From positions 1,714,838 to 1,778,837 of the forward strand of contig NZ_BBRA01000001.1 in NCBI RefSeq assembly GCF_000975035.1: a DNA stretch of 64,000 bases, in the 5' to 3' direction. Source of the stretch: Demequina flava. Lineage in GTDB: Bacteria; Actinomycetota; Actinomycetes; Actinomycetales; Demequinaceae. A program made the translations under genes and the position numbers. The notes beneath the pieces are model-generated. The model was not told the DNA's origin, did no database searches, and worked only from the letters and a program-made list of their open reading frames with translations. Shown here in pieces: positions 6,629-64,000 of the stretch (positions are counted from its first letter, which is position 1; the number at the start of each line of letters is the position of its first letter).

Positions 6629-7876
6629 ATGACCCACGTTCCCGGTAGTCCTAGCTATCTTGCGTTGCAGCGCTCTGAACTCCTGAACTGGGTGCCGAAG
6701 GCACGCACCGAGCAGGGCTTCGGGTACCTGACCACTGATGGCAGCGTTGATGCAGATCGAGGCAGTGAACTGTGGATCACCTGCCGGATGACGCACGTCG
6801 CCGCGCTCGGGCTCTTGGCCGGCGAGCACGATCACCCCGGCGATGTGAGTCGGGACGCGCTCCTCGGCGCTGCAGCTCACGGCGTCGCATCGCTCAAGGG
6901 CGCATTTCACGACGACGCCCATGGCGGGTGGTTCGCCTCTGTCAACGACAGCGGTCCTGTTGTCACCACCAAGCAGGCATACGGGCACGCATTCGTCGTT
7001 CTGGCCGCAAGCTCAGCAACCGCGGCCGGCATCGAGGGGGCACAGAGCCTTCTCACAGACGCGCTCGCGGTCTCCGAGGCGCGGTTCTGGGATGAGGACC
7101 AGGGGCTGTCCCTCGAGGAATGGGACGCGCAGTGGTCGGTCCTGGACCCCTACCGCGGCGTCAACGCCAACATGCACACAGTGGAGGCGTACCTCGCCGC
7201 CGGTGACGTGACCGGCGACCACATCTGGCATGAACGTGCCGGCCGCATCGCAGCCCGCGTCGCGGACTGGGCTCGCGACAATCAGTGGCGCATCCCTGAG
7301 CACTTCGACGAGCAGTGGCGTCCGCTCCTGGAGCTCAACCGCGATCAGCCCGCGCACCCGTTCCGCCCCTACGGGGCAACGGTGGGGCACGGTCTGGAGT
7401 GGGCGCGCCTCTTGGTTGCGGTGTCGCTGACTTTGAGGGCCGATGCTCCAGAAGGTTTGCGCGATGCTGCAGTTGCGCTCTACGTGCGTGCCGTCGCGGA
7501 CGGTTGGGATGTCGACGGTGCTCTGGGCTTTGTGTACACCACCGATTGGGACGGCGTTCCCGTCGTGCGCGAGCGGATGCACTGGGTGCTCGCCGAAGCC
7601 ACGGCCACGGCGTCCGTGCTCCACGCGCTCACGGGCGACCCGGCCTATCGGGACGCCGAACGTGAGTGGTGGGCGTATGCCGACGCGCACCTCATCGACC
7701 ACGAGCGGGGCTCGTGGCATCACGAGCTCGACCCAGAAAACCGGCCCGCGGGCACTGTGTGGCCGGGCAAGCCAGACGTCTACCACGCCTACCAGGCAGT
7801 GGTCTTGCCAGAGCTTCCGACGGTGCCGTCTTTCGCCACCGCCTTGAAGCTCAAAGGTGGGCTCGGCTCACGCTGA
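6629..7876 (+). CDS. AGE-family sugar isomerase/epimerase (mannose isomerase/YihS-like)
   Basis: The 415-aa protein fits the N-acylglucosamine 2-epimerase superfamily, an (alpha/alpha)6 barrel. Signature segments are NANMHTVEAYLAAGD, YGATVGHGLEWARLL, RMHWVLAEATATASVL and WPGKPDVYHAYQAVVLP; the conserved histidines in these segments are the usual catalytic bases of mannose isomerase, YihS and cellobiose 2-epimerase. It acts in the cytoplasm on a free aldose or ketose. Its place after the GH120 gene suggests it isomerises a xylan-derived sugar or side-chain sugar, but the substrate cannot be read from sequence. An exact copy of GGCCGATGCT is at 7438-7447. Confidence 0.82.
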   Translation: MTHVPGSPSYLALQRSELLNWVPKARTEQGFGYLTTDGSVDADRGSELWITCRMTHVAALGLLAGEHDHPGDVSRDALLGAAAHGVASLKGAFHDDAHGGWFASVNDSGPVVTTKQAYGHAFVVLAASSATAAGIEGAQSLLTDALAVSEARFWDEDQGLSLEEWDAQWSVLDPYRGVNANMHTVEAYLAAGDVTGDHIWHERAGRIAARVADWARDNQWRIPEHFDEQWRPLLELNRDQPAHPFRPYGATVGHGLEWARLLVAVSLTLRADAPEGLRDAAVALYVRAVADGWDVDGALGFVYTTDWDGVPVVRERMHWVLAEATATASVLHALTGDPAYRDAEREWWAYADAHLIDHERGSWHHELDPENRPAGTVWPGKPDVYHAYQAVVLPELPTVPSFATALKLKGGLGSR

Positions 7877-7920
7877 CCCCAGCATCGGCTCGATGCGGCA
7901 CGCCCCACCTCACACGCCGA

Positions 7921-7926
7921 TAGACT
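7921..7926 (+). promoter_or_regulatory. -10 box for leaderless argS
   Basis: TAGACT begins exactly 12 bases before GTG 7933, placing transcription start on that codon. ATG 7930 is three bases earlier in frame. No Shine-Dalgarno precedes either. Confidence 0.5.
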
Positions 7927-7929
7927 GCC

Positions 7930-9609
7930 ATGGTGACTCCTGAGGAACTTGCCGCACAGATCCGCGCCGCTCTGCTTGAGGGCATCGACGACTCCGACTT
8001 CCAGCTGTCCCCGTTTGACGTGCCTGAGGACCTGCGCGTCGAGCGTCCGCGCCAGCGTGAGCACGGTGATTGGGCGACCAACATCGCGATGCAGCTCGCC
8101 AAGAAGGCCGGCACCAACCCGCGTGAGTTTGCCGACACCCTTGTCGAGCGCCTTGTCGACATCGACGGCATCGACTCGGCTGAGGTCGCCGGGCCTGGCT
8201 TCATTAACATTCGCCTGGCCAAGGGTGCTGCGGGTGAGCTTGCCCGCGGCATCGTCGACTACGGCGAGGACTACGGCCGCGGCGAGTCGCTGACGGGCAA
8301 GACCGTCAATATCGAGTTTGTCTCCGCCAACCCCACCGGCCCCATCCACCTCGGCGGCACCCGCTGGGCAGCGGTCGGAGACTCCCTGGCCCGCCTCATG
8401 GAGTTCCATGGCGCCAACGTGGTGCGTGAGTACTACTTCAACGACCACGGCTCGCAGATCGACAACTTCGCCGCCTCGCTGTACGCAGTCGTGGCGGGGG
8501 AGGACACCCCCGAGAACGGCTACGGCGGCCAGTACATCCAGGACATCGCGAACGAGGTCATGATCGAGGCGATGGAGAACGCGGACCCCGATCCGCTTGA
8601 GCTCCCGCGAGATGAGGCCATCGAATTCTTCCGTCTGCGTGGCGTGCGCCTGATGTTCAACGAGATCAAGGAATCGCTCGTCAACTTCGGCGTCGAGTTC
8701 GATGTCTTCTTCCACGAGGACGAGCTCCACAAGACCGGCAAGGTCGACCACGCGCTCAAGGAACTCAAGAAGTCCGGTGCGCTGTACGAGTCCGAGGGAG
8801 CCTGGTGGCTGCGTAGCACCGAGCACGGCGACGACAAGGACCGCGTCGTCATCAAGTCGGACGGAAACGCCGCGTACATCGCTGGCGACATCGCGTACAT
8901 TCGCGACAAGGCTGAGCGTGGCGCTGACCTCTGCATCTACCTGCTGGGCGCCGACCACCACGGCTACATCGCTCGCCTCAAGGCTGCCGCAGCGGCGCTG
9001 GGCTATGCGCCCGAGATCGTCGAGGTCATCATCGGCCAGATGGTGAACCTCGTGAAGGATGGCGCCCCAGTGCGCATGTCCAAGCGCGCCGGCAACGTCG
9101 TGACGATGGAGGACCTGGTGGACGCCGTCGGCGTTGACGCCGCCCGCTATTCACTCACCCGCTCCAGCGCAGACAGCACCATCGACATCGACCTCGACCT
9201 GCTGTCGTCGTCGACCAACGCGAACCCCGTGTTCTACGTCCAGTACGCGCACGCACGTGCCTCGTCGGTGGCGCGCAACGCCGCCGAGTACGGCATCAAC
9301 CGCGAGGACGGCTTCGACGCCAGCCTGCTCGAGCACGAGTGGGAAGCGAAGCTTCTTGGCGTGCTCGGCGAGTTCCCACGTGCCGTGACCCAGGCAGTCG
9401 AGTTCCGTGAGCAGCACCGCATCGCCCGCTACCTCGAAGAGCTGGCCGGCGTCTATCACGGCTGGTACGACCGCACGCGCGTGACGCCTCAGGGCGACGA
9501 GGAGATCACTGATCTTCACCGCACGCGCCTGTGGCTCAACGATGCCGTGCGCCAGGTCTTCCAGAACGGACTGGCCCTGCTCGGAGTCTCCGCGCCCGAG
9601 AGGATGTAA
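7930..9609 (+). CDS. argS: Arginyl-tRNA synthetase
   Basis: Class I aminoacyl-tRNA synthetase that charges tRNA-Arg with arginine using ATP. Length is 559 aa. The HIGH motif appears as HLGG in [14 protein letters not shown] (about residues 133-146), a variant common in actinobacterial ArgS, and the KMSKS loop as RMSKR near residue 382. An N-terminal Add-1 tRNA-binding domain and a C-terminal anticodon-binding DALR domain flank the core. The start may be GTG 7933 on a leaderless transcript, because the -10 box TAGACT is placed for it. lysA follows six bases after the stop. Confidence 0.96.
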
Positions 9610-9615
9610 CAACCC

Positions 9616-10956
9616 ATGACGACGACTCCCTGGTCCCAGACCGTGGAGCGTGGCTCCGACGGTGCCCTGTCAGTGGCAGGTATCGATGTGCGAGACCTCG
9701 CCGCCGAACACGGAACCCCGCTCTATGTGGTCGACGAGCTCGACTTCCGAGCCCGAGCATCGGCCTTCCGCGACCACTTCGGCGCAGCCTTCCAGCGCCA
9801 CGGCGCGCAGATGGACGTGTTCTACGCGTCTAAGGCGTTCCTGTCGTCGCAGGTCGCCGGCTGGATGCATGAGGACGGGCTGTCCATCGACGTGGCGAGC
9901 CTCGGGGAGCTCGAGGTCGCGCTGCGTGGCGGCATGCCCGCGGACCGCATCGGGCTGCACGGCAACAACAAGCAGATCGACGAGCTGACCCGGGCGCTCG
10001 AGGTGGGTGTGGGCCGCATCATCGTCGACTCCTTCACTGAGATCGACGTCATCAATGAGTTAGCGGAATCACTTGGAGTGCAGGCGCCGGTCCTGGTGCG
10101 CGTCACGACAGGTGTGCACGCGGGCGGTCACGAGTACATCGCGACCAGCCACGAGGACCAGAAGTTTGGGCTGTCACTGGCGACCGGCGCCGCGCTCGAA
10201 GCCCTGCACGCGTGCCACGACGCGCCTCACCTCAACTTGCTCGGCATCCATACCCACATCGGCAGCCAGATCCTGTCGATAGATGCCTTCCGCGAGTCCG
10301 CAGACCGCATGCTGAGGCTACGCGCCCAGTTCACTGAGGCCACCGGCGCGGACCTGCCAGAGGTTGACCTGGGCGGTGGCTACGCGATTGCGTACACGCC
10401 GGGTGCAGAGGCCTTGGATCCAGCCGATGCTGCGGTTGCCATTGCAGACGCCGTCGCCTCGGTTATGGGGGACCACGACGGCGACTGGCCCCACTTCTCG
10501 ATCGAGCCCGGTCGCGCGATTGCCGGCCCTGCTGGCATGTCGTTGTACTCCGTCGGAGTCGTCAAGCAGGTGTCCCTCGACGACGGCGGCACACGTCAGT
10601 ACGTCGCCGTTGACGGCGGCATGAGCGATAACCCGCGCACCATCATGTACGGCGCTGAGTACTCCGCAGCGATTGCTTCGCGTGAGTCGGCGGCGCCGGC
10701 CGCGCTGTCGCGCGTGGTGGGTAAGCACTGCGAGTCCGGCGACATCATCGTCCGCGACGTGGAGCTCCCGGGAGACATCGCGCGCGGCGACTTGCTGGCT
10801 GTTCCCGCGACCGGAGCGTACGGCCGCTCGATGGCCTCGAACTACAACAACGCCCTACGTCCCGCGGTGGTGGCGGTCAAGGACGGACAGTCGCGACTCC
10901 TCGTGCGTCGCGACACCATCGCCGACCTTCTCGACTGGGACGTCGCCTCCCATTAG
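9616..10956 (+). CDS. lysA: Diaminopimelate decarboxylase
   Basis: Catalyses the last step of lysine synthesis, decarboxylation of meso-diaminopimelate, with pyridoxal phosphate. The PLP lysine is Lys73 in FYASKAF; GIHTHIGSQ, the glycine loop DLGGGYAI and the GKHCESGD active-site block are all present. Length 446 aa is typical. It follows argS by six bases, the usual actinobacterial argS-lysA pairing. A hairpin at 10962 closes the transcript. An exact 10-mer copy lies at 9756-9765. Confidence 0.97.
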   Translation: MTTTPWSQTVERGSDGALSVAGIDVRDLAAEHGTPLYVVDELDFRARASAFRDHFGAAFQRHGAQMDVFYASKAFLSSQVAGWMHEDGLSIDVASLGELEVALRGGMPADRIGLHGNNKQIDELTRALEVGVGRIIVDSFTEIDVINELAESLGVQAPVLVRVTTGVHAGGHEYIATSHEDQKFGLSLATGAALEALHACHDAPHLNLLGIHTHIGSQILSIDAFRESADRMLRLRAQFTEATGADLPEVDLGGGYAIAYTPGAEALDPADAAVAIADAVASVMGDHDGDWPHFSIEPGRAIAGPAGMSLYSVGVVKQVSLDDGGTRQYVAVDGGMSDNPRTIMYGAEYSAAIASRESAAPAALSRVVGKHCESGDIIVRDVELPGDIARGDLLAVPATGAYGRSMASNYNNALRPAVVAVKDGQSRLLVRRDTIADLLDWDVASH

Positions 10957-10961
10957 CGGTG

Positions 10962-10984
10962 CGAGTCGCCGTCTCGGCGGCTCG
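10962..10984 (+). terminator. Hairpin after lysA
   Basis: CGAGTCGCCG (10962-10971) pairs with CGGCGGCTCG (10975-10984) with one T-G wobble and a 3-base loop. There is no U-run, as is common for high-GC terminators. Confidence 0.5.
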
Positions 10985-11064
10985 GAACAATGTGACCCTT
11001 CCCTCTGTTGACGTGACTGACACGCACAGGCGGTTTGACCGCCGTCGAGGGAAGGAGACATCTC

Positions 11065-11695: not shown

Positions 11696-12250
11696 TTAAC
11701 GGTCCGCGAGCCCAGCCCACTCGGTCAGGACATCGATGTCGTCTACGATCTCGTCCATGACGCGGTCGAACGTCTCCTGATCGTGTCCCCAGGGGTCATC
11801 GAGGCTGCGAAGGGGAGCAGGCTGCTCAAGCCGCGCGTGATCGAGCGTTGCTGCCATCGCCTCAAGCCGAGCCTCGGGCGTGGCCCCAACCGGAGCATCG
11901 GCCCGGCCCGCCAATTCCACCGCTTCCTTGAGGCCAAATACGTGAGGCGCCCGCTCTCCCCACTCTTGCTCGATCCAGCCCGCATGTTGCTGCGTCGCGA
12001 CGAGGACGAGGTCGGCACGCGACAGGATTCCGTAGTCCAACTGCGTGGGCCGGTGCCGCGGGATGGTGAGGCCGTGGCGTACTGCTGCGGCGCGGATGGG
12101 TTGAGGGGCGTCAAGCCCGATCTCGGCGTAGATGCCGGCGCTATTCACCTCCGCAGCCACGCCCCACCGGTCGCGTGCGTAGTAGTGCATCGCGGGGGAG
12201 CGGCAGATGTTGCCGGTGCAGACCATTGTGACTCGCGCTTGAGAACTCAT
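11696..12250 (-). CDS. Low-molecular-weight protein-tyrosine phosphatase
   Basis: The phosphate-binding loop CTGNICRS (Cys11 nucleophile, Arg17) sits at the N-terminus and the general-acid loop DDPWG near the C-terminus, the arrangement of LMW-PTPases; length 184 aa is normal. It probably dephosphorylates tyrosine residues in cytoplasmic or cell-envelope regulators. Arsenate reductases share the fold but the DPWG acid loop favours a phosphatase. It is a single gene between a terminator and the DUF817 gene. An exact 10-mer copy at 11894-11903 is read as Ala-Asp-Ala. Confidence 0.88.
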   Translation of the reverse strand: MSSQARVTMVCTGNICRSPAMHYYARDRWGVAAEVNSAGIYAEIGLDAPQPIRAAAVRHGLTIPRHRPTQLDYGILSRADLVLVATQQHAGWIEQEWGERAPHVFGLKEAVELAGRADAPVGATPEARLEAMAATLDHARLEQPAPLRSLDDPWGHDQETFDRVMDEIVDDIDVLTEWAGLADR

Positions 12251-13158: not shown

Positions 13159-13203
13159 TGTCGCATGAAGGAGGGCCGATGCTGTGAAGGCTAGGGCTCC
13201 GAT

Positions 13204-13215: not shown

Positions 13216-14502
13216 GTGTCCAGCCCCAACAGCCCCGTGAAAATCGCCATCCTCGGATGTGGGACCGTCGGCACCCAAGTGGTCCGGCTCCTCACCGAGC
13301 AGCAGACCGACCTCAGCGCCCGCGTAGGCGCCGATGTCGAGATCGCTGGCGTGTATGTCCGCGACACCTCTGTCACTCGAGACGCCGTGGTCCCCACGGA
13401 TGCGCTCACGAGTGACTCTGAGGCGCTCATCGACTCCGCCGATGTCGTGGTCGAACTCATGGGTGGGCTGGAGCCCGCGCGCAGCATGATTCTGCGCGCC
13501 CTCACCGCGGGCAAGGCCGTGGTGACGGCGAACAAGGCGCTGCTCGCGACGCACGGCGCTGAACTGTACGAAGCCGCCGATGCCGCGGGCACCGACCTCT
13601 ACTTCGAGGCCGCCGTCGCGGGAGCGATCCCACTGGTGCGCCCCGTGCGTGAGTCGCTCGCCGGCGACACTGTCACGCGCATTCTGGGCATCGTGAACGG
13701 CACCACCAACTATGTGCTCGACGAGATGACGACCAAGGGCCTCGACTACAGCGAGGTTGTCGCCGAGGCGCAGCGTCTGGGTTACGCCGAGGCGGACCCC
13801 ACCGCAGACGTGGGCGGCCACGACGCCGCAGCAAAGGCAGCCATCCTGGCTTCTCTCGCGTTCCACCAGCGCGTGGCGATGGACGATGTCTACTGCGAGG
13901 GCATCACCGAGATCACCGCGGACGACATCGCGGCAGCAGCGGAGACGAACCACGTCATCAAGCTGCTGGCGATCGCGGAGCAGACCGAGTCCGGTGTGTC
14001 TGTCCGTGTTTACCCGGCGCTGCTTCCCAACACCCACCCCCTTGCCTCCGTGCGCGGTGCGTTCAATGCCGTGTTCGTCGAGGCCGAGGCCGCCGGTGAA
14101 CTCATGTTCTACGGCCAGGGTGCCGGTGGGGCTCCCACAGCATCGGCCGTCTTGGGAGACATCGTCTCTGTCGCCCGTCACGTCGCCGGCGGAGGCCGCG
14201 GCCCCCGCGAGTCGAATTACGCGAGCCGCGACCTGCTGCCTATCGACGGTGCGCACACGCGCTACGCGGTGCGCATGAGCGTCTTTGACCAGCCTGGCGT
14301 ACTGTCCCGGGTGGCAGAGGTTTTCGCTAGCCACGGCGTGGGCATCGGCTCTGTCCTGCAGGTCCCGGACGCCGAGCGCGCCTCACTCATCATCTCGACG
14401 CACCGCGCTCAGGAGTCTGCGCTGCGTGCCACGGTTGACGAGGTCCGCGACATGGACGCTGTCGGAGAAGTGCTGTCTGTCCTGAGGATTGAGGGAGAGT
14501 AA
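13216..14502 (+). CDS. hom: Homoserine dehydrogenase
   Basis: Reduces aspartate semialdehyde to homoserine, the branch point to threonine and methionine. The NAD(P)-binding GCGTVG motif is at about residues 13-18, the catalytic core contains [11 protein letters not shown], and an ACT domain ([20 protein letters not shown]) at the C-terminus gives threonine feedback control. Length 428 aa is typical. GTG 13216 has no ribosome site and lies 12 bases after a -10 box. The stop overlaps the thrC start (TAATG), so translation is coupled. Confidence 0.97.
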
Positions 14503-15560
14503 TGGCTCACGTGTGGCGCGGCATTGTTCGCGAATACCTGGACCGCTTGCCGTTCGATGAGGGCGACCGCATCGTCTCGCTGGGAGAGGGCGGCACTCCG
14601 CTCGTCCACGCCGCCTCGATCTCCGAGGAGGTGGGCGCGAACGTCTACGTCAAGTACGAGGGCATGAACCCCACGGGTTCCTTCAAGGACCGCGGCATGA
14701 CCTCGGCCATCACGCAGGTCGTCAAGGACGGCGACCACACGGTCGTATGCGCCTCGACCGGCAATACGTCGGCCTCCGCGGCCGCCTATGCCGCCCACGC
14801 GGGCCTCAACTGCGTCGTCATGATTCCCGAGGGCAAGATCGCGGCCGGCAAGATGGCGCAGGCAATCGTGCACGGCGCCAAGCTGGTCCAGGTCGACGGC
14901 AACTTCGACGAGTGCCTCGACATTGTGCGCACGCTGTCGGAGGACTACCCGGTCGCGCTCGTGAACTCGGTGAACCCGTACCGCCTCCAGGGACAAAAGA
15001 CTGCGGCGTTCGAGATCGTCGACCAGCTTGGCGACGCTCCCGACATTCACATGCTTCCCGTCGGCAACGCCGGCAACATCTCCGCGTACTGGATGGGCTT
15101 CCAGGAGTACGCGGAGGCGGGCATCGCCACGCGCACTCCGCGCATTTGGGGTGTGCAGGCCGAGGGCGCCGCGCCGTTCGTGCACGGCGGCCCCATCAAG
15201 GACCCCGAGACCGTCGCAACCGCGATCCGCATCGGCAAGCCAGCCTCGTGGGACAAGGCCATCGCCGCTCGCGATGAGTCCGGCGGCTGGATCCGCGCCG
15301 TCTCCGACGCGCAGATCCTCAATGCCCAGGCGCGTTTGGCCGCCGACGTCGGCGTCTTTGTTGAGCCGGCCTCAGCCGCGCCCATTGCGGGACTGCTCGC
15401 AGCATCGGCCCTCGGAGAAGTACCCCAAGGCGCCACGATTACCTGCACCGTCACCGGTAACGGGCTGAAGGACACCGCCACGGCCCTCGCGGGTCGCGAT
15501 GTCAACCCTGAGGTCATCCCCGTGGACGTCGCAGCGGCAGCGAAGGCATTGGGTCTGTAA
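14502..15560 (+). CDS. thrC: Threonine synthase
   Basis: PLP enzyme converting O-phosphohomoserine to threonine. Lys62 in GSFKDRGM is the PLP lysine; the [14 protein letters not shown] phosphate/substrate loop and VGNAGN cofactor-phosphate loop are clear. Length 352 aa matches the short actinobacterial class. It overlaps hom by one base and is followed by thrB after two bases. An exact 10-mer copy is at 15401-15410. Confidence 0.97.
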
Positions 15561-17271: not shown

Positions 17272-17861
17272 CGATTCGTCACGCGACTGCAGATGACCGT
17301 GACGCAATTGCGCGGATCTGCCTGCTGACAGGCGCCGCAGGTTCCGACGCCACTGGCGTCTATGGGGACGATGCCGCACTTGCCGATGTCTATGCGCTCC
17401 CGTATCTCGATGGTCCGGGCGGCTTCGCCTTGGTGTGGGACGAGGGCGCCGGAGCGGTGGGTTACTGCCTGGGGACGTCGGATACGGACGCGTTCCAGGA
17501 ATGGTTTAGTGCGACCTGGTGGCCCAGCGTCGCCGACTCCCACCCGCTGCGCACCGAAGCCGACGAGACGTTGCTGCGCGCAGCGACTGATGCCGAGCGC
17601 ATGACGACGCCGCTGACGGAGGACTATCCCGCTCACCTTCACATTGACCTGCTGCCCCAGGCGCAAGGCCGCGGGGCCGGTCGCCAACTGATCGAGGCCG
17701 CGGTAGAGCTCCTGCGTGACCGCGGCAGCGCGGGCGTGCACCTGGGGGTCGACCCCGCGAACGAAGGCGCGCTGGCGTTCTATCCGCGTGTGGGCTTCTC
17801 CGCGGTTCCCGATGCCCCGGGTGTGATGTTCGCACGGGCCATCCCAGCATCGGCCGGCTAA
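17268..17861 (+). CDS. GNAT-fold acetyltransferase-like protein
   Basis: A 197-aa GCN5-related protein. The acetyl-CoA motif A appears as LLPQAQGRGAGRQLIEAA, followed by GVHLGVDPANEGALAFYPRVGF. The N-terminal half (YALPYLDGPGGFALVWDE, VGYCLGTSDTDAFQEWF, WWP) resembles the acetyltransferase-like domain fused to O-GlcNAcase in other organisms and to stand-alone bacterial homologues. GTG 17268 overlaps the ThuA stop codon. Pairing with ThuA suggests a role in modified-sugar metabolism; this is inference. The last codons contain an exact 10-mer copy (17846-17855). Confidence 0.85.
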   Translation: MTIRHATADDRDAIARICLLTGAAGSDATGVYGDDAALADVYALPYLDGPGGFALVWDEGAGAVGYCLGTSDTDAFQEWFSATWWPSVADSHPLRTEADETLLRAATDAERMTTPLTEDYPAHLHIDLLPQAQGRGAGRQLIEAAVELLRDRGSAGVHLGVDPANEGALAFYPRVGFSAVPDAPGVMFARAIPASAG

Positions 17862-28221: not shown

Positions 28222-28231
28222 ACGCCGCAAC

Positions 28232-28282
28232 CACAGCATCGGCCCGTTCCCCCTCACCCCTGGGGAGCGGGCCGATGCTGTG
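28232..28282. terminator. Bidirectional terminator built from two inverted 10-mer copies
   Basis: CACAGCATCGGCCCG (28232-28246) and CGGGCCGATGCTGTG (28268-28282) are perfect 15-bp complements. An inner TCCCC/GGGGA extends the stem to about 21 bp across one wobble, with a 9-base loop. It separates the convergent isomerase and ROK genes. Confidence 0.85.
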
Positions 28283-28379
28283 TCTGGGGTCCGTACGCCC
28301 GCATCCAGGCGTGTGGTTGCGCTCTGAGGAGCGGCAGTGAGCGTCTGGGGCGCCGTGCGAGCGTGGCGTTGACGCGGGG

Positions 28380-36457: not shown

Positions 36458-36668
36458 CGCGCAGGGGAGAGGTTGCGTAGGCCGTAGGCGCGCAGGGGAG
36501 GGGCGGCGGAGGGCCGATGCTGCGGGCACCCCGGAGCGGCGAACCGGCAGGTAGTCACGGCGACAGTTGGTAGGCCCTTGACGACCGTGGCACAATAGAA
36601 CGCTGGCCGTCCGGTTCACCGACCACGAAATCCGTGCAAGGACCCGGAGGCACCTCTAAAGGGAGATC

Positions 36669-48941: not shown

Positions 48942-50402
48942 ATGACAAAGAAGCCATCTACCTTCCCCGAGGATTTCCTGTTCGGCGCGGCCACCGCGTC
49001 CTACCAGATCGAAGGCGGCGCCCACGAAGGCGGCCGCGGCACCTCAATCTGGGACACCTTCTGCGCCACTCCTGGCATGGTCACCAATGGCGACAACGGC
49101 GACGTTGCGTGCGACCACTTCCACCGCTGGGAGGAAGACGTCGACATGATGGTCGAGATGGGCCTGCAGGCCTACCGCTTCTCGATCGCGTGGCCCCGCG
49201 TGCAGCCGACCGGCACCGGCGAGTTCAACGAAGAGGGCATCGCTTTCTACCGCAACCTCATCGCGCGCCTGAAAAAGGAAGGCATCAAGCCCCTCATCAC
49301 GCTCTACCACTGGGACCTCCCGCAGGAACTCCAGGACAAGGGCGGCTGGGTGAACCGCGAGATCGTGGACGACTTCGTGACCTACGCGGTCCGCATGTAC
49401 GAGGAGTTCGCCGACGACGTCGACATGTGGGTCACCTTCAACGAGCCCTGGGTTGCGTCCTTCGTCGGCTACGGCGCAGGAGCCCACGCACCCGGCCACA
49501 CGGACCCCGTCGAGGCGTTGACCGCGGCACACCACCTGAACCTGGCCCACGCCCGTGCGTACCGCGCCATGAAGGCCATCAACGACGCGCCGCAGATTGG
49601 GTACGTCAACAACTGCCACACCCCCCGCCCCTGGGACCCTTCTAATCCCAAGGACCTCGCAGCATCGGCCCACATCGATGCCCTGGCCAACACCATGTTC
49701 CACCAGCCGTTTATTCAGGGCGGCTACCCCGAGGTGCTGCGTCCCAACACGGCGCAGCTGACGGACTGGGGCTTCGTGCACGATGGCGACGAGGACGAGA
49801 TGAAGGGCGCCGTGGACTGGTTTGGTGTCAACTACTACGCCTCGCACCTGGTGCGCCACAACCCGAACAAGGGCAAGGCTGAGTCTGACGTCGCCACGCT
49901 CGCGGACGGCCACAAGGCCGGAGCGGGAACGGCCTGGCCGGGCGACGAAGAGATCGAGTTCATGCCTCCGGTGGGCGAGCTCACCGCGATGGGGTGGAAC
50001 GTCGACCCCTCCGCGCTGACCGCGCACATTCTGAAGATTCACCGCGAGACCGGCAAGCCCATCTACGTCACCGAGAACGGCTCCGCCTGGGACGACGTCG
50101 TGGACGAGGACGGACGCGTGCGCGACATCAACCGCACCCGCTACGCCCACGGTCACATTGGCGCCGTGCTCGATGCGATCCACGAGGGCGCGGACGTCCG
50201 CGGCTACATGGCGTGGTCCCTCATGGACAACTTTGAATGGGCCCAGGGCTACAACAAGCGCTTCGGCATTGTGCGAGTCGACTACGACACCCTTGAGCGC
50301 CGCTGGAAGGACTCGGCCTACTGGTACGTCGAGTTGCTGCGCCGTCGTTCGCTGCCTCCCGTCGACGCCGACCTCGCGCCGACCCCTCCGCGTACCTTCT
50401 AG
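48942..50402 (+). CDS. GH1 beta-glucosidase
   Basis: Cytoplasmic glycosidase of 486 aa that splits cellobiose and other beta-glucosides. The GH1 signature FLFGAATASYQIEGG is at the N-terminus; acid/base Glu168 lies in TFNEPW and nucleophile Glu378 in YVTENGSAW, the normal pair. There is no signal peptide. It is a single gene with its own palindromic operator and leaderless promoter and a U-run terminator at 50419. An exact 10-mer copy is at 49661-49670. Confidence 0.95.
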   Translation: MTKKPSTFPEDFLFGAATASYQIEGGAHEGGRGTSIWDTFCATPGMVTNGDNGDVACDHFHRWEEDVDMMVEMGLQAYRFSIAWPRVQPTGTGEFNEEGIAFYRNLIARLKKEGIKPLITLYHWDLPQELQDKGGWVNREIVDDFVTYAVRMYEEFADDVDMWVTFNEPWVASFVGYGAGAHAPGHTDPVEALTAAHHLNLAHARAYRAMKAINDAPQIGYVNNCHTPRPWDPSNPKDLAASAHIDALANTMFHQPFIQGGYPEVLRPNTAQLTDWGFVHDGDEDEMKGAVDWFGVNYYASHLVRHNPNKGKAESDVATLADGHKAGAGTAWPGDEEIEFMPPVGELTAMGWNVDPSALTAHILKIHRETGKPIYVTENGSAWDDVVDEDGRVRDINRTRYAHGHIGAVLDAIHEGADVRGYMAWSLMDNFEWAQGYNKRFGIVRVDYDTLERRWKDSAYWYVELLRRRSLPPVDADLAPTPPRTF

Positions 50403-50488: not shown

Positions 50489-50797
50489 ATGCCGAAGTCC
50501 CGCCGATCGCGCAAGCGCCCGTACGGCCAGCCGCATGAGGAGTTGGACGTCGAGCGACTGGCAGGATCGGTGGGCGGGCGTCGGGAAACCGGGCCCGGTG
50601 GCGAGGAATTCATCGTCGCCGTGCCGCGTCCCAGCGAGAAGACGTACATCTGCCCGGGATGCCACCAGGAGATTGCCCCGTTCGCGGCGCACCTGGTCGC
50701 CTGGGCCGCTGACGGCCTGTTTGGGGCCGATGCTGCGGCCAGGGATCGCCGGCACTGGCACACCCGTTGTTGGAACACCTTTGGGAGGACTGCGTGA
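50489..50797 (+). CDS. Small zinc-ribbon-like actinobacterial protein
   Basis: A 102-aa basic protein. The N-terminus is Arg/Lys-rich (PKSRRSRKRPYG); the C-terminal half has candidate metal ligands in YICPGCHQEIAPFAAHLVAW and RRHWHTRCW. The family is conserved but uncharacterised; nucleic-acid binding is a guess from the basic tail and the Cys/His cluster. A -10-like TAGACT lies 13 bases before ATG 50489. Its stop overlaps the next gene's GTG (GTGA). An exact 10-mer copy is at 50725. Confidence 0.8.
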   Translation: MPKSRRSRKRPYGQPHEELDVERLAGSVGGRRETGPGGEEFIVAVPRPSEKTYICPGCHQEIAPFAAHLVAWAADGLFGADAAARDRRHWHTRCWNTFGRTA

Positions 50798-52298: not shown

Positions 52299-52712
52299 TC
52301 ACTGCTGGCCCCACGTGGTGCCGCCAGCAAGCCGCTTGGCCAAAGCATCGGCCATAGGCATTGACTCGCCGTCGCGACCGCCCTTGCCCACTTCCAGCGG
52401 CGGGGGAGAAGGCTCGAGCGTCACTCCGCTGAACCGACCCTTGAGCGACTTCGGAGCGCTCAGGATGTAGAACTTGCCATCGGTGCCGACCCCAATGGCG
52501 CGATCACGCTTGAGGTACCAGCCGCGCACATTGGTGCGATAGCGGGTCTTCCCGTCGTATGAGCGCGCCGACAGGTCGGTAGGCTCGATTCCCGCTGCGT
52601 TGGCGTCGTCGACAAACTGAGCGACGAGGGCCTCCGCCTGCCTGGATTGTGCGGCCTGAGCGCGTTCGAGCGCCTCCGCCCTGCGCACCCTGGCGTCGCT
52701 CGACTCGGACAT
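52299..52712 (-). CDS. Conserved hypothetical actinobacterial protein
   Basis: A 137-aa protein with an Ala/Arg/Glu-rich helical N-terminus (ARVRRAEALERAQAAQSRQA) and a globular middle (RYRTNVRGWYLKRDRAIGVGTDGKFYIL). No known function. It begins 12 bases after the stop of the large coiled-coil gene and is probably co-transcribed with it. An exact 10-mer copy (52344) is read as Ala-Asp-Ala. Confidence 0.75.
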   Translation of the reverse strand: MSESSDARVRRAEALERAQAAQSRQAEALVAQFVDDANAAGIEPTDLSARSYDGKTRYRTNVRGWYLKRDRAIGVGTDGKFYILSAPKSLKGRFSGVTLEPSPPPLEVGKGGRDGESMPMADALAKRLAGGTTWGQQ

Positions 52713-52724: not shown

Positions 52725-55415
52725 TTAGTTCGTCGAACTTGCGGGTTCTTCGGCATCCGCTTCCGCGGCCTCGTGCTCATCCTTCAACGCGGTTGCCTTC
52801 GCCAGGCCAGCGACGGGATCCGCGCTCAGTAGACCGCGCAGGTCGTCGAGGTATGAGGTGATCGACTCGCGCTGACGGTTGAGCTCGTCCACCTCCTGCT
52901 GGGCGTTGGTGCGCTCGCGCTCGGCGTCGGAGACGGCCTCGGAGATGATGGCCTCTGCGTGCTCGCGCGACTCCGACACAATCTCGTCGGCGTTGGTGCG
53001 GGCGTTGCTGAGCAGCGTCTGCGAGTGGACCTCGGCGTCGCGGCGGACGGCATCGGCACGCTCGAGGGCATCGGACAGGCGCTCCTCGGCCTCATCGGCA
53101 CGCACGCGCGCATCCTCGACCATTGCGGCCGTTTCCGCCTTGGCTTCTTCGTGACGTGCCGTGAGCTCCTGCTCGGCCGCCTCGCGACGCTGCGCGATCT
53201 CGATCTGCAGGTCCTCGCGAGAGCGGCGTGCCTCCTCGTGGGCGGCCTCCGCGTCCTGGTGACCCTCTGCGCGTGCCTTGTCGGCGTCGCGCTGCGCAGT
53301 GGTGACGATGTGGTTCGCCTCTTGGCGTGCGGCTGCGACGCGCTCTTCCGCGTCATCGGTCGCAACCTGCGCGGTCTTGGCCGCATCACGGTCCGCGCCT
53401 TCGCGAGTCGACACCGCGTAGGCATCAGCTTCACGGCGTGCGGTCTCGGAGTACGTATCGGCATCGCCGCGGGTCGTGGCGTCGTAGTCGTCGGCCTCCA
53501 GACGGGCCTGTGCGGCGTCGTCGTCGGCTGCAGTACGAGTCGCGGAAGCGTAGTTGTCGGCGTCCTTGCGGGCGGCCTGGTCGTAGAGGTCCGCGTCCTT
53601 ACGCACCTGGCGCGAGGCGGTCTCTGCTGCTTCCTTGGTGGCAACCGCGTAGTCGTCGGCATCCTTGCGCGTGGTCGCCGAGTACTCGTCAGCGTCCGCC
53701 TGGGTGGCTGCCTTGTAGTCGTCAGCCTCCGCACGCGTTGCCTCGGAGTACGCGTCTGCCTGCTCGCGCGTCGTCGTTTCGTATCCGTCAGCCTCCGCGA
53801 TGGTGACACGGCGGTACTCGTCGGCCTCGGAGCGCTGCGCCTCGTCGTAAGCGTCGGCTTCCTGGCGGACCTCGTCGGCGTCGGCATCGGCCTGGGCGCG
53901 AGTCTCGCTGCCGTAGGTGTCGGCGGCGGTCCTGGTTTGGTCGGAGTACGTGTCGGCGTCCGCACGCGTCTCCGTGGCGTACTGGTCCGCCTCGCCCTGC
54001 GTCGCTGCCTTGTAGTCGTCGGCTTCGGACCGCGTCGCGGCCGAGTAGTCATCAGCGTCGGAGCGGGTATGTGCCGCGTACTCGTCTGCAGCCACCTGAG
54101 TCGTGGTCTTGTACTCGTCCGCCTCGTTCTGGGTGGCGTTGCGGTAGTCGTCGGCCTCGGTGCGCGTGGCCTGGTCGTACTCATCGGCCGATGCTCGGGT
54201 CGCGGTGTCGTACTCGTCCGCAGCGGAGCGGGTGGTGCGGTCATAGTCGTCAGCTTCACGCTCGACCTGGGCGCGGTGCTCTGCAGCGGCGGCATGGGCC
54301 GCAGCAAGCGCTGCGTCGCCCTCGTTGCGCAGGCGCGTCGCGTACTCGTCGGCGCCAGCCTCGGTTGTCGCCTTGTAGTTATCGGCCTCGGAGCGCGTTT
54401 CGTGCGCGTAGTCCTCGGCGTCGGCGCGGGCAGCCTCGTCGTACTCGTCGGTGTCAGCTCGCAGCGAGTCAACCTCGCGCTGTGCCTCTGCACGGAGGTC
54501 GCGGACCTCGGCATCGGCTTCGCGGCGGGCAACTTCAATGTCGCGATGTGACTGAGTCAGGAACTGCTGCGCCTCGTTCCGCATGTTCGCTGCGTCGGAA
54601 TCGGCGGAGATGCGAATGTCTGAGGCCTCGGCATCAGCCGCCGCACGCGCGTCCTGAGCCTCACCGTGCAGGCGCTTGGCTTCGAGCCGCGCCTCCTCGA
54701 GGGCCTTCTCTGCGTCCTCACGCAGGCTCGCCGACTCATCCTTGGCGGCGACAATCGCGGCCTCAGCCTCGGCCCGAGCCGCTTCAACGGCCTCGGTCGC
54801 TTCGCGCTGGGCGTTTACGCGTAGTTCTGTGGTCTCACGCTCGGCGGTTGCGCGCAGGGTGTGGACCTCGCGGTCGGCCCCGGCCTTGAGTTCGGCGATT
54901 TCGGAGTCGATGCCGGCCTTGACGCGCTCGGCGTCGCGGCGCGCGCGCTCGACGGTCTCGGCCGCCTGGCGCTCCGCGGCCTCGCGGGTGCCGCCTGCCT
55001 CCGACTCTGCAGCGGTGCGAATCTCTTCTGCCTCGCGACGGCTCTGAGCGAGAATCTCGGCCACTTCGTTGTCCGCACGTGCCCGGAGCTGCTGCGCTGC
55101 CACGTTGGCACGAGCGACAGTGTCCTGCGCGTGGGTATTGGCGCGCTGGACAACGTCAGAGGACTGCTCCTCGGCGGAACGCAGAAGTTGCTCGACGCGG
55201 GCACCCAGCCCCTTGTAGGTAGGCTGCTCCGCCTCGCGGAGTGACTTCTGGGCGTCCTCGAGCGCGCCGCGCGTGGACGCGGACTCTTGCTGCGCCTGCT
55301 GAGCGGCTTCCCGTGCCTCCTTGAGGGAGTCCTCAAGTCGCGCCACGTGTGCGGCAACCGCTTCACGGTCGTAGCCGCGCATCGCGACGGGGAAAGCCAA
55401 GTTCTCTTCCGGCAT
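52725..55415 (-). CDS. Large coiled-coil protein with 33 hendecad repeats (Scy/DivIVA-like)
   Basis: An 896-aa, Ala/Glu/Asp/Arg-rich protein without signal peptide or membrane segment. The N-terminus (LAFPVAMRGYDREAVAAHVARLEDS) resembles the membrane-binding start of DivIVA-type proteins. Residues 110-318 form an ordinary coiled coil. Residues 319-681 are 33 unbroken 11-residue repeats with consensus R-x-x-A-D-x-Y-x-x-x-T (e.g. RSEADDYKAAT), coded by 33-base units at about 53373-54461. Residues 682-850 return to coiled coil. Hendecad coiled coils and the DivIVA-like head recall Streptomyces Scy/FilP polar cytoskeletal proteins, so a structural role at the cell pole or wall is likely. AGGAG precedes ATG 55415. 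Confidence 0.9.
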   Translation of the reverse strand: MPEENLAFPVAMRGYDREAVAAHVARLEDSLKEAREAAQQAQQESASTRGALEDAQKSLREAEQPTYKGLGARVEQLLRSAEEQSSDVVQRANTHAQDTVARANVAAQQLRARADNEVAEILAQSRREAEEIRTAAESEAGGTREAAERQAAETVERARRDAERVKAGIDSEIAELKAGADREVHTLRATAERETTELRVNAQREATEAVEAARAEAEAAIVAAKDESASLREDAEKALEEARLEAKRLHGEAQDARAAADAEASDIRISADSDAANMRNEAQQFLTQSHRDIEVARREADAEVRDLRAEAQREVDSLRADTDEYDEAARADAEDYAHETRSEADNYKATTEAGADEYATRLRNEGDAALAAAHAAAAEHRAQVEREADDYDRTTRSAADEYDTATRASADEYDQATRTEADDYRNATQNEADEYKTTTQVAADEYAAHTRSDADDYSAATRSEADDYKAATQGEADQYATETRADADTYSDQTRTAADTYGSETRAQADADADEVRQEADAYDEAQRSEADEYRRVTIAEADGYETTTREQADAYSEATRAEADDYKAATQADADEYSATTRKDADDYAVATKEAAETASRQVRKDADLYDQAARKDADNYASATRTAADDDAAQARLEADDYDATTRGDADTYSETARREADAYAVSTREGADRDAAKTAQVATDDAEERVAAARQEANHIVTTAQRDADKARAEGHQDAEAAHEEARRSREDLQIEIAQRREAAEQELTARHEEAKAETAAMVEDARVRADEAEERLSDALERADAVRRDAEVHSQTLLSNARTNADEIVSESREHAEAIISEAVSDAERERTNAQQEVDELNRQRESITSYLDDLRGLLSADPVAGLAKATALKDEHEAAEADAEEPASSTN
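53373..54461 (-). repeat. 33 tandem 33-base units in the coiled-coil gene
   Basis: The units code for the uninterrupted 11-residue repeats R-x-x-A-D-x-Y-x-x-x-T. Units differ at many positions, so the array is old or selected at protein level rather than recently amplified. One unit contains an exact 10-mer copy (54185). Confidence 0.9.
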
Positions 55416-55558
55416 CTCATCTCCTCTATACGCGGTAGGGGTGAATACGCGCGTAGTCGACCTCCAGAGTAGTGGCCCGAAACGTGACCGACAAAGTGGT
55501 GAAGTGGGCCAAACGCCAGAAGTCTCCTAAAGTGAAGACAGAACCCAAGGAGGAACGA

Positions 55559-56509
55559 GTGACTTTAAGGACGGCTGCCCTCGCAGCAGGAGTACTGGGA
55601 GTGCTTCTGCTGATCGCGGGCCTGATTGCCGACGCGCAGCGGCCACCGCGTGATGTGCTGGCTACTGCCGATGTCGACACGCCTGTCGTGGTCTACTCGC
55701 CAGCAATGGTCGAGTTCGCCGCTCAGTCGCGGCTGGGAGTCACCGGCGAGGGCGACATCGTCGCTCTCACGGCACGCCCAGCGGACGCCGACGCGTGGCT
55801 GGCTGAGCACGAGGCCACGGAGGTCACAGGACTTCCCCAGTGGGAGACACTGTCGACCACCGCGTACGAAGCGGTTGAGCCGGAACCGACCGCGAGCCCT
55901 TCGGCATCGCCGTCTGCCTCGGCGAGCGCCTCTGAAGAGCCCAGCCCATCGCCGTCACCGTCTGGTGATGACGAGGCGGCTGAGGACGCGGAGCCTGTCG
56001 ATATTTTGGCTGAGACCTCTGCGGACCACTGGCGCGAGCAGTGGAACGGTGTTGACCGTGTGGCCGTCTCCGCCGCAGATGTTCCTGTCGGAGAGACGCT
56101 GATTATCGCCAGTCGCGACGGCTCGCCGTTGACGCAGACCGACATGCGCCTGTCGCGTGAGGTCAACGACGGCTGGATCACGCCGCTGATTTGGTGGGGT
56201 GCCGGCCTTACCCTCGTTGGTCTGATCGCCCTGATCTTCCGTTTCATCGACACGCGCCCGGTCCAGGCAAAGCTCGAGGCGCGGCGCGCTTCGCGTGGGG
56301 CCGATGCTGACGAGACCAGCGAGCCTGGCTCCCGTCGCGCTCGCCGTGAGAACGGCGAACTCTTGCCCGACGCATCGCTTGATGAAGAGCCGGCGTCGCC
56401 GAGCTCTGCGACGTCGACCGAATCCGCTAAGTCGACCGATTCCGCCGCATCGGCGGAGACCCCACCATCACCAGAACGGTCCCCCGAGGACGAAGGAGGC
56501 CGCTCATGA
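55559..56509 (+). CDS. Two-helix membrane protein with Ser/Pro/Glu-rich linker
   Basis: A 316-aa protein of unknown function. One membrane helix near the N-terminus (LAAGVLGVLLLIAGLIAD), an extracytoplasmic domain of about 190 residues containing a Pro/Ser/Ala linker (PSASPSASASASEEPSPSPS), a second helix (LIWWGAGLTLVGLIALIFRF) and an acidic/Ser-rich cytoplasmic tail. GTG 55559 was chosen because AAGGAGGAA lies just before it; a GTG 29 codons upstream is also in frame. It overlaps the lipoprotein gene by four bases. The pair may act in the envelope. Confidence 0.8.
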   Translation: MTLRTAALAAGVLGVLLLIAGLIADAQRPPRDVLATADVDTPVVVYSPAMVEFAAQSRLGVTGEGDIVALTARPADADAWLAEHEATEVTGLPQWETLSTTAYEAVEPEPTASPSASPSASASASEEPSPSPSPSGDDEAAEDAEPVDILAETSADHWREQWNGVDRVAVSAADVPVGETLIIASRDGSPLTQTDMRLSREVNDGWITPLIWWGAGLTLVGLIALIFRFIDTRPVQAKLEARRASRGADADETSEPGSRRARRENGELLPDASLDEEPASPSSATSTESAKSTDSAASAETPPSPERSPEDEGGRS

Positions 56510-57516: not shown

Positions 57517-58464
57517 ATGACTGCACAGAACCCTGAGGTGCCCCTGCGCGGCGCGCCTGACCTTTCCCAACTCGCAGCGGCCGCGAAGGCTGCCCAGGAG
57601 CCCGCCCCAACTGAGGGTGCGGCCCCAACTGCCGGAGCATCGGCCGTCTCCGTGGTGGAGGTGACTGACGCCAACCTCAACGACTTGGCACAGACCTCCT
57701 CCGAGGTCCCGATCGTCATCGTGTTCCTGTCGTCGGCCTCGCCGGCGTCCAAGGAACTTGTTGACCGCATGCGCGGGCTGCTTGCTCGCTACGACGGTCG
57801 ACTGCTCCTGGGTCAGTGCGACATCGACAAGAACGGTCAGATCGCTCAGGCGCTGCAGATCAGCGCCGTGCCTACGACGTTGGCCCTCATCGCAGCACGT
57901 CCCGCGCCGCTGTTCCAGGGCGCTCCCGACGACGAGCAGATCACCGGCGTGCTTGACCAGGTGCTCGAGATCGCGGCTCAGAACGGCGTGACTGGTCGGG
58001 CCGCGACTTCCGACAATGCCGAGCCCGAGGCGGAGCCGGAGCCAGAGCCGCTGCCTCCGCTGCACCAGGAGGCCTACGACGCCATCGAACGCGAGGACTA
58101 TGCGGCCGCGATCGACGCGTATGAGCGCGCTTTGAAGGAAAACCCCAAGGACGCCGACGCGAAGGCGGGTCGCTCACAGGTGGCCCTCATGGAGCGCACC
58201 AAGGATGCCGACCTGGCCGCGGTGCGCAAGGCCGCTGCGGATGCGCCTGGCGACCTCGACGCTCAGATGGCCGTGGCAGACATGGACATCCTTGGTGGTC
58301 AGGTTGAGGATGCCTTTGTGCGCCTCATTGATGCTGTGAAGACGGCGCCGAGCGAGGACCGCGAGAAGATTCGTGTGCGCCTTGTCGAGCTGTTCGACGT
58401 TGTGGGCGTCGCTGATCCCCGCGTGGCTGAGGCGCGTCGCGCGCTCTCCACAGCCCTCTTCTAA
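57517..58464 (+). CDS. Thioredoxin-fold/TPR protein (YbbN-like co-chaperone)
   Basis: A 315-aa cytoplasmic protein: a Pro/Ala-rich N-terminus, a thioredoxin fold (about residues 45-150; VIVFLSSASPASKELVDRM, QISAVPTTLALI) and C-terminal TPR helices (LHQEAYDAIEREDYAAAIDAY onward). The CxxC pair is replaced by SPAS, so it cannot do thiol exchange. YbbN/CnoX proteins with this layout act as chaperone holdases or co-chaperones. An exact 10-mer copy is at 57636. Confidence 0.9.
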   Translation: MTAQNPEVPLRGAPDLSQLAAAAKAAQEPAPTEGAAPTAGASAVSVVEVTDANLNDLAQTSSEVPIVIVFLSSASPASKELVDRMRGLLARYDGRLLLGQCDIDKNGQIAQALQISAVPTTLALIAARPAPLFQGAPDDEQITGVLDQVLEIAAQNGVTGRAATSDNAEPEAEPEPEPLPPLHQEAYDAIEREDYAAAIDAYERALKENPKDADAKAGRSQVALMERTKDADLAAVRKAAADAPGDLDAQMAVADMDILGGQVEDAFVRLIDAVKTAPSEDREKIRVRLVELFDVVGVADPRVAEARRALSTALF

Positions 58465-60711: not shown

Positions 60712-60755
60712 GCGCTACCGCCTCTCGATTGGTGTGTGGGGGTGCTGAGTGTGAG

Positions 60756-62753: not shown

Positions 62754-62759
62754 ACGTCG

Positions 62760-62765
62760 AACCTA
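62760..62765 (-). promoter_or_regulatory. -10 box for leaderless glgE
   Basis: Minus-strand TAGGTT begins at 62765, exactly 12 bases before ATG 62753. Confidence 0.5.
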
Positions 62766-62893
62766 CAGTGAACAGCGCTCGCTGTGTAGCCGCGACTCGG
62801 GTCAATTACGCGCTCGCGGCAGGTAAATGCCGTGTTCCGCGTCCGCGGTGAGGGTGGAGACGGGCCAATGCTGGGTGAGGGTCGAGCGCAGAG

Positions 62894-63904
62894 CTATGCG
62901 CTGGCGCGGACCACCAGCGAGGCGGGCAGAGTGACCGAGTCCGCTTCACGGCCAGAAGATGCAGCGAGCACCAGTTCCACCATCGCGGCGGAGATGTCGT
63001 CGAAGGGCTGGTGCATAGTCGTCATGGGCGGTTCGAAGTTGGCGGCGAGCCCGGAGTCATCGAACCCGACTACCGCTACATCCTCGGGCACGCGCTTGCC
63101 CCGTTCTCGCAACTCCACAATGGCACCTGCCGCCATCCGGTCGGAGGCAGCGAACACGGCGTCGACGTCAGGTGCGCGATCGAGCAAGCGCGCCATGGCC
63201 TCCCGCCCAGATTCGCGCGAGAAGTCGCCCGCCTCTTCTAGGTCTGGGTCGTGGAGCTTTCCCAGGGCGTCGCGGTAACCGACGCGGCGGAATCGTCCAC
63301 CGGGCGTGTCCTCGGGACCCGTGATGTGCGCGATTCGAGTGCGGCCCAGGGACCTCAAGTGTTCCGTGGCGATACGCGCGGAGCCCACTTCATCAACGGA
63401 AACCGTCGGGACCTGGTCTTCGTGTCCGAGGGGGATGCCGCAGGCCACCGTCGGCACGCCGGTCTCGATGAGGGTGTCGATGAGCGGGTCTGCCTCGTGA
63501 GACGAGATAAGCAGCACGCCATCGACGTGCCCTGCTCCCACGAACTGAGCCACGTTGGCGCGCTCTGCTTCACTGCCGGCCACCAGCAGCACGAGCGTCT
63601 TGCCCTTCTTCGCAAGCGCTTCCGCGGCTCCGCGCAACAGGATCGCGAACGTGGGGTCCGCAACCAGCAAGTGTTGCGGCTCGGTGAGGAGGAAAGCGAT
63701 CGAGTCCGCGCGGCCGGTGGCGAGCGAGCGGGCGTGGTGATTGGCGTGGTAGCCCGTGGCCTGCATTGCGGCCTCGACCTTCTCGCGCGCATCGGGCGAA
63801 ACCCAGTGGCCGCCGTTCAGTACGCGCGAGACCGTGCCGCGGGAGACTCCTGCGGTCGCCGCGACGTCGCGGATGGTCGGTTTGCGTTTCGCGGGGCTGG
63901 TCAC
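62894..63904 (-). CDS. LacI-family transcriptional regulator
   Basis: A repressor of about 336 aa. The helix-turn-helix and hinge region is TIRDVAATAGVSRGTVSRVL, followed by a sugar-sensing domain (SIAFLLTEPQHL, VPTVSVDEVGSARIATEHL, AVFAASDRMAAGAI, VAVVGFDDSGLAANFEPPMT). The start is uncertain: GTG 63904 and GTG 63910 are both close behind a TAGAGT -10-like hexamer (63918-63913); an upstream in-frame start would add an odd 21 residues. It sits upstream of glgE and may regulate a neighbouring sugar operon outside the window. The downstream gap to glgE (62754-62893) holds a near-copy of the 10-mer. Confidence 0.9.
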   Translation of the reverse strand: MTSPAKRKPTIRDVAATAGVSRGTVSRVLNGGHWVSPDAREKVEAAMQATGYHANHHARSLATGRADSIAFLLTEPQHLLVADPTFAILLRGAAEALAKKGKTLVLLVAGSEAERANVAQFVGAGHVDGVLLISSHEADPLIDTLIETGVPTVACGIPLGHEDQVPTVSVDEVGSARIATEHLRSLGRTRIAHITGPEDTPGGRFRRVGYRDALGKLHDPDLEEAGDFSRESGREAMARLLDRAPDVDAVFAASDRMAAGAIVELRERGKRVPEDVAVVGFDDSGLAANFEPPMTTMHQPFDDISAAMVELVLAASSGREADSVTLPASLVVRASA

Positions 63905-63941
63905 GGTCACAGACTCTATCGCCGCGCGTGAAGGGAAGAGT

Positions 63942-63983
63942 CGATGCTTGGGTGGGGTCCGCTCAGACCTCACCCAAGCATCG
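63942..63983. terminator. Strong hairpin containing a 10-mer copy at the window end
   Basis: An 18-bp stem with one wobble (63942-63959 with 63966-63983) and a 6-base loop. The right arm overlaps the exact copy AGCATCGGCC at 63977-63986. It lies upstream of the LacI gene and probably terminates a gene beyond the window. Confidence 0.7.
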
Positions 63984-64000
63984 GCCCTGTTAACGAGACA

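Follow-up and report, generated by a model that had tools for sequence, protein, structure and literature searches.

A genome-wide ten-base word in Demequina flava: probable core of a DNA uptake sequence that varies in dialect across the genus

A ten-base word, GGCCGATGCT, is over-represented throughout the genome of the actinobacterium Demequina flava to an extent that codon use does not explain, and we consider it quite probable that this word is the core of a Demequina DNA uptake sequence, read in an extended form close to AGGGCCGATGCTGKGGT. The word was noticed in a 64,000-nucleotide stretch of the D. flava genome (contig NZ_BBRA01000001.1, positions 1,714,838 to 1,778,837; here called the window), and a preliminary description of it had proposed either an uptake sequence or the recognition site of an unknown genome-wide factor. 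Most related species carry variant words with a common core, and D. flava possesses genes for a type IV pilus and for ComEA and ComEC.

Results

In the window, 18 exact copies (8 on the plus strand and 10 on the minus strand) extend from position 7438, where the first starts, to position 63986, where the last ends, while 100 dinucleotide shuffles gave a mean of 0.23 copies and a maximum of 2. The preliminary description had reported the same copies against an estimate of about 0.3, together with at least 14 one-mismatch copies; we counted 37 sites with at most one mismatch (8.35 expected), 19 of which carry a single mismatch. The whole genome (2,546,965 bases in 3 contigs) holds 736 exact copies, 356 forward and 380 reverse, and the control with reversed letters gave 15. 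Detailed statistics come from a sample of 41 pieces that contains the window and totals 862 kb, or 34% of the genome; our own simple script called 762 genes in it (86.7% coding). An order-3 Markov model predicts 6.2 copies in this sample where 255 were observed, and with an order-5 model of its first 464 kb the word is the top 10-mer (136 versus 9.4 expected).

The over-representation also exceeds what codon use can produce. When synonymous codons were shuffled within the genes of the sample, as the preliminary description had suggested, a mean of 5.0 copies was obtained (standard deviation 2.2, maximum 13 in 100 runs) in place of the 180 observed, and the word ranked at the top of those that occur 15 times or more among the 243,162 distinct coding 10-mers; neither this count nor that of the whole genome lies near the codon-shuffled expectation. 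Copies are 2.7 times denser between genes (75 copies, 0.656 per kb) than within them (180 copies, 0.241 per kb; p = 1.6e-11). The 75 intergenic copies share an extended motif of about AGGGCCGATGCTGKGGT, in which position -1 favors A or C, position 0 favors G (0.84), positions 11 to 14 favor G (0.60 to 0.69), and position 15 favors T (0.47); since this motif is seen outside genes, codons cannot be its cause. Single-letter changes at positions 1 to 9 are mostly near background, the highest ratios being 5.2 (T at 9) and 3.9 (A at 1). Position 10 is tolerant, and its C (130 versus 9.3) and G (54 versus 11.7) forms are enriched as well. Genome-wide, D. flava also holds 351 copies of GGCCGATGCC and 146 of GGCCGATGCG, which together with GGCCGATGCT makes 1233 copies, or one per 2.07 kb. 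The enrichment of GGCCGATGCT is thus confirmed as real, genome-wide, and greater than codon use.

The preferred word differs among the species of the genus. We surveyed 44 Demequina genomes and three from other genera of the family (47 in all), and exact GGCCGATGCT is high in few of them (736 copies in D. flava, then 307, 291, 244, 238, and 221). Counting words de novo in 40 to 160 kb per species revealed other words in its place in sister species. Whole-genome counts of GGCCGATGCC reach 1118 (in G064), 1097, 1081, 907, and 651; those of GGCCGATGCG reach 1203 (in G034), 1056, 1005, 864, 862, and 667; GGACGATGCB has 885 to 1809 copies in 16 genomes, and GSCCGACGCTG has 809 (in G009), 191, 137, and 79. 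The core common to these words is CGAYGC. Because the reversed-letter control understates the coding background (unenriched genomes still hold 80 to 130 copies of GGCCGATGCC), we took for each genome, of five patterns, the one whose count was the largest multiple of the genus median for that pattern. On this measure, 34 of the 44 genomes have a word at 5 times the median or more: 6, 5, and 5 for the forms told apart by their last letter, here labeled T, C, and G, 14 for GGACGATGCB, and 4 for GSCCGACGCTG. Six further genomes lie at 3 to 5 times the median and four (G001, G007, G012, and G017) below 3 times, and five of the six T genomes also hold many C forms. Two local observations were made in passing. 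The palindrome ATCGCGAT is over-represented (62 versus 21.2) in G001, the sole genome in which no uptake-like word was seen (stretches L079-L081, L221, and L225-L228), and in G003 (L088-L090) the repeated words TCAAGCCATT and TTGATTCGTAC are limited to one stretch and may belong to a repeat array.

The dialects, with their conserved core, track the host tree. In a tree of PilB, AroE, MltG, and PilC, built with a quick method from 32 rows and with a long-branch warning for G018, Cell1, and G009, all GGACGATGCB rows group together, as do all GGCCGATGCG rows. The 27 labeled rows require 7 dialect changes, while 300 shuffles of the labels needed at least 11; when five mixed T rows and two thinly labeled rows are left out, 5 changes suffice for 20 rows, and the shuffles needed at least 9. 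Since D. flava itself is placed among species of the C dialect, it has probably acquired its T form recently.

Individual sites also turn over. G036 is the sister of D. flava in the same tree, and 79 kb could be aligned between the two at 77.5% identity. The nine-letter core is kept in G036 at 17 of the 41 GGCCGATGCN sites of D. flava, compared with 15% for random 9-mers (p = 4e-5), and the other 24 are not common to both; the sites are therefore held above chance, yet gained and lost. Among the 18 T sites of D. flava the core is kept at 6, and each of these 6 has a different last letter in G036.

Related genera had been proposed as a test, and exact GGCCGATGCT is not enriched in three genomes from two other genera of the family or in 22 genomes of other families. 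Among 297 genomes of the order, the degenerate pattern GSMCGATGCB has 1120 to 2490 copies in 21 of the 23 Demequina genomes sampled, the remaining two being G003 (486) and G001 (628). No comparable word was prominent in Cellulomonas (28 loci), Actinotalea (5), or Sanguibacter (3) in about 21 kb per genome, all of it around the pilus locus, a sample of low power.

The placement of the copies reveals neither polarity nor clustering. With the sign of the GC skew of each piece as a proxy for the replication strand (the position of the origin was not mapped), the G-rich strand of the sample carries 132 copies and the other 123 (p = 0.62), which, like the near-equal forward and reverse counts of the whole genome, upholds the lack of strand bias described before. 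Counts of GGCCGATGCT per 10 kb are Poisson-like (mean 2.96, variance 2.76, 85 bins). The frame preference described for the window, where genic copies were said always to encode Ala-Asp-Ala or Ala-Ser-Ala, holds for all 12 of its genic copies and for 164 of the 180 in the sample, so that "always" was too strong. Table 1 lists the window copies, of which our simple gene caller places 12 within genes and 6 between them. The genes that had been named as carriers were recovered, including lysA and hom, a PALP-family gene after hom that fits thrC, and matches to Sua5_yciO_yrdC and Glyco_hydro_1, as were the intergenic copies.

Three word-poor bins were scanned, two of which hold genes of mobile-element type and one ordinary genes. 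One 10-kb bin without any GGCCGATGC (D. flava C3:900001-909000; L113:1-9000) contains genes without a Pfam match and a weak, sub-threshold match to Rep_1, and is possibly an integrated plasmid. Another word-poor bin holds a likely integrative element, with a phage-type integrase gene on C2 at about 372773-373909, minus strand (L026:12773-13909), whose neighbors encode an AAA_25 protein and a glutamine synthetase.

A search for comEA, comEC, and type IV pilus genes had been proposed as well, and both the competence and the pilus genes are present in D. flava. One locus (L105) encodes PilB, PilT, PilC, PilD, and PilM by Pfam, the major prepilin PilA and two further prepilins by N_methyl, a large protein without a Pfam match that we regard as PilX-like, and two proteins that we call PilN and PilO from their position alone. 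The comEA gene, with HHH_3 and SLBB domains, adjoins comEC. In the genus, comEC occurs in 43 of 44 genomes, the exception (G005) being 85% complete. All 47 family genomes have PilT-family (pilT_fam) matches above the cut-off, although each also has a second PilT-like gene of about 430 bits that passes; the higher-scoring copy (at least 476 bits) is found in 44 of 47 and is broken or partial in G005, G029, and G060. In D. flava this second PilT-like ATPase lies at C3:1684824-1685843 (+), and it has counterparts across the family genomes. In the pilus locus (L105 and L205-L224), PilN, PilO, and the minor pilins are of two strongly diverged types, that of D. flava at 8 and another at 12 of 20 loci compared, as if exchanged as cassettes.

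Outside the pilus locus, each of six genomes of different dialects contains one prepilin above the N_methyl cut-off. Its gene stands beside metE in four of the six and one gene away in the other two (metE was identified by Pfam in G023 and by eye in the other genomes). This orphan prepilin has 134 to 174 amino acids, counted from a mechanically assigned start, and a conserved C-terminal region with two cysteines in its C-terminal half. The protein is similar to PilA; the closest relatives of solved structure, by sequence, match it chiefly in the N-terminal helix. We regard it as a candidate for the pilin that reads the word.

Table 1. Exact copies of the word in the window, with the hairpin stretch and the orphan prepilin gene (positions are those of the window unless a contig is named)
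Feature	Position	Strand	Context
Exact word	7438..7447	+	Sense in epimerase/isomerase-like gene 6629-7876
Exact word	9756..9765	-	Antisense in lysA 9616-10956
Exact word	11894..11903	-	Sense in LMWPc phosphatase gene 11696-12226 (-)
Exact word	13174..13183	+	Intergenic, upstream of hom; extended motif AGGGCCGATGCTGTG
Exact word	14139..14148	-	Antisense in hom 13216-14502
Exact word	15401..15410	-	Antisense in thrC-like gene 14502-15560 (PALP family)
Exact word	17846..17855	-	Antisense in GNAT gene 17268-17861
Exact word, left arm of inverted pair	28235..28244	-	Between convergent genes 27220-28221 (+) and 28380-29573 (-)
Exact word, right arm of inverted pair	28270..28279	+	Same intergenic gap, 27220-28221 (+) / 28380-29573 (-)
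Hairpin stretch holding the inverted pair	28222..28300	+	Long fold, -53.9 kcal/mol, z -6.73
Exact word	36512..36521	+	Intergenic (own gene calls)
Exact word	39034..39043	+	Sense in Sua5_yciO_yrdC (tsaC-like) gene 38903-39568
Exact word	49661..49670	-	Antisense in glycoside hydrolase family 1 gene 48942-50402 (beta-glucosidase, Glyco_hydro_1)
Exact word	50725..50734	+	Intergenic
Exact word	52344..52353	-	Sense in gene 52299-52712 (-), no Pfam match
Exact word	54186..54195	+	Antisense in gene 52725-55415 (-), weak Scy-like coiled-coil match
Exact word	56299..56308	+	Sense in gene 55472-56509, no Pfam match
Exact word	57636..57645	-	Antisense in TPR gene 57517-58464
Exact word	63977..63986	-	Intergenic
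Orphan prepilin gene (candidate reader)	D. flava C3 ~1215465-1215869 (L252:1186-1590)	-	N_methyl; counterparts L253-L257

Discussion

Of the two proposals in the preliminary description, DNA uptake is the better supported, and we favor it over a genome-wide factor because of the dialects of the genus, the turnover of positions, the lack of polarity, the intergenic excess, and the presence of the pilus and comEA-comEC genes. The functional part of the proposal, that is, both the preference of uptake for the word and the pilin that reads it, is what we infer from these observations. We propose that a type IV pilus pilin at the cell surface would bind the word on free DNA and that PilT would then retract the pilus, after which ComEA might hold the DNA and ComEC might pass one strand into the cell, where it could recombine. 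DNA that bears the word would be taken up more often, and copies would accumulate over time where coding constraint permits. A slow change of the reader would shift the favored word and could in this way give rise to dialects.

Several of our observations weigh against this interpretation. G001 has comEC and the pilus, though no word was found in 160 kb of its sequence, and the comEC matches are fragmented in G009, G026, and G060. Outside the genus, GSMCGATGCB reaches 390 per Mb in G268 of family f20, which is close to the 431 per Mb at which the 21 enriched Demequina genomes sampled begin. Counts of the word per 10 kb in D. flava are Poisson-like (mean 5.02, variance 4.97), with at most one copy in 6 of 93 bins where 3.7 were expected, so that they do not in themselves reveal an avoidance of foreign DNA. 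Among 725 genes, the fifth with the strongest codon adaptation is the poorest in GGCCGATGC, with 2.2 per 10 kb versus 5.4 in the weakest fifth, a trend opposite to the one that foreign DNA without the word would give. Use in terminators, to which the preliminary description had pointed, is weak as well; the pair at 28235 and 28270 does form a strong hairpin between convergent genes, but in general close pairs are not in excess (6 pairs less than 70 bp apart in the sample versus 5.3 expected), and a general terminator role was rejected. The minor pilins of the pilus locus, in 20 loci and that of D. flava, form two divergent types whose distribution does not match the dialects but cuts across T, C, and F, which argues against these pilins as dialect readers. 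Finally, the pilins and ComEA are all acidic, including all six orphan prepilins, so charge singles out no receptor and was discarded as a pointer; for the orphan prepilins this acidity is contrary to what a DNA-binding protein might be expected to have.

Family f20 deserves a separate remark, as several of its members (G268, G190, G248, and others) hold 270 to 390 copies of GSMCGATGCB per Mb, well above most other families; this signal could be either a second lineage with a word or plain codon use.

The strongest of the alternatives, though in our view an unlikely one, is that a cytoplasmic protein which organizes or maintains the chromosome binds the word, with no role in uptake. The roughly Poisson spread over genes and intergenic DNA would suit such a protein, and its sites could drift into dialects too. 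However, known chromosome-organization sites are mostly palindromic, polar, or clustered, and GGCCGATGCT is none of these; the 24 of 41 sites that are not common to G036 also fit accumulation driven by uptake better than a fixed architectural role. The lack of polarity speaks against a Chi-like or KOPS-like word that is read in recombination or chromosome segregation. Such words are short, non-palindromic, and over-represented, as ours is, but they are skewed to one replication strand, and since our counts by GC skew reveal no such bias we rejected this explanation and give it only a very slight chance.

A recognition site for DNA modification or repair that has been enriched by biased mutation, an origin proposed for HIP1 in cyanobacteria, would be expected to spread over the genome without polarity, and this agrees with what was observed. 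The word is nevertheless a non-palindrome with at least 10 informative bases and a graded flank, and most of its single-base variants at positions 1 to 9 are near background, which biased mutation does not obviously predict; we therefore consider this origin improbable, slightly less so than a Chi-like or KOPS-like role. Codon or dipeptide usage, or the copying of a repeat element, retains practically no probability. The concentration of genic copies in one frame pair points toward codons, but the synonymous shuffle yields so few copies and the intergenic density is so much higher that an artifact of codon use is ruled out. As for a repeat element, copies within unrelated genes have only the extended motif of about 17 bases in common, and their positions differ between species.

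With DNA uptake as the preferred reading, a bolder version of it may be offered tentatively, as a possibility to which we give somewhat less than even weight. The Gram-positive genus Demequina might have independently evolved a code for the uptake of self-DNA, with at least five dialects, in which the orphan pilin near metE, and not the pilins of the pilus locus, would be the reader and in which the dialects would form a mating barrier between Demequina species.

To our knowledge, uptake sequences with a proven role exist only in the Neisseriaceae and Pasteurellaceae, both of which are Gram-negative. If our interpretation is true, self-recognition evolved again in a Gram-positive phylum, and the genus would offer a new case in which to ask whether uptake bias alone makes such words accumulate. 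The dialects would then be a testable species barrier in a harmless environmental genus, and a search for natural transformation in Demequina would be warranted. A search of open-access literature, in which few subscription papers or preprints are included, brought up no uptake sequence from Actinobacteria and no natural transformation from Demequina, and a search of it for the literal letters of GGCCGATGCT returned, among the matches listed and judged by title, none about uptake. According to PMC12040237, most competent organisms show no preference for particular sequences when they take up DNA.

Among Actinobacteria, Micrococcus luteus offers the closest comparison. PMC8467076, which contains neither "uptake sequence" nor "uptake signal" as a term, describes a comEA-comEC operon in this species, and this paper and PMC6370729 attribute its competence to Tad/Flp pili. 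D. flava likewise has comEA-comEC, but a pilB/pilT/pilC/pilM locus is present in its genome. The uptake signal sequence (USS) of the Pasteurellaceae is, as excerpts of PMC2346458 and PMC12616744 present it, a genome-wide word whose versions diverge among species and which has a frame preference in genes. All three properties are found in Demequina, whereas the letters of the USS and the phylum of its hosts are unlike those of Demequina. The USS receptor itself is only predicted, as ComN/PpdA, in the excerpt of PMC12616744.

The DNA uptake sequence (DUS) of the Neisseriaceae, given as GCCGTCTGAA in part of PMC6370729, has an invariant core and dialects that track the family tree, as set out in part of PMC3630211. 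It resembles the Demequina word in being short and non-palindromic, in having hundreds to thousands of copies on both strands, and in its association with a type IV pilus and ComEA/ComEC-type machinery. The two also differ, as Demequina is a Gram-positive, high-GC host in which the word is less dense than the DUS of N. meningitidis (about 1900 copies), and the Neisseriaceae have a known receptor, ComP, and a proven function, while the function of the Demequina word is proposed and its reader is a candidate. Descent from the Neisseriaceae DUS was rejected, as the Demequina words keep CGAYGC, with letters unrelated to the CTG core, and lack CTG in the known position. The Demequina word would therefore work like a DUS but stand outside the Neisseriaceae DUS family.

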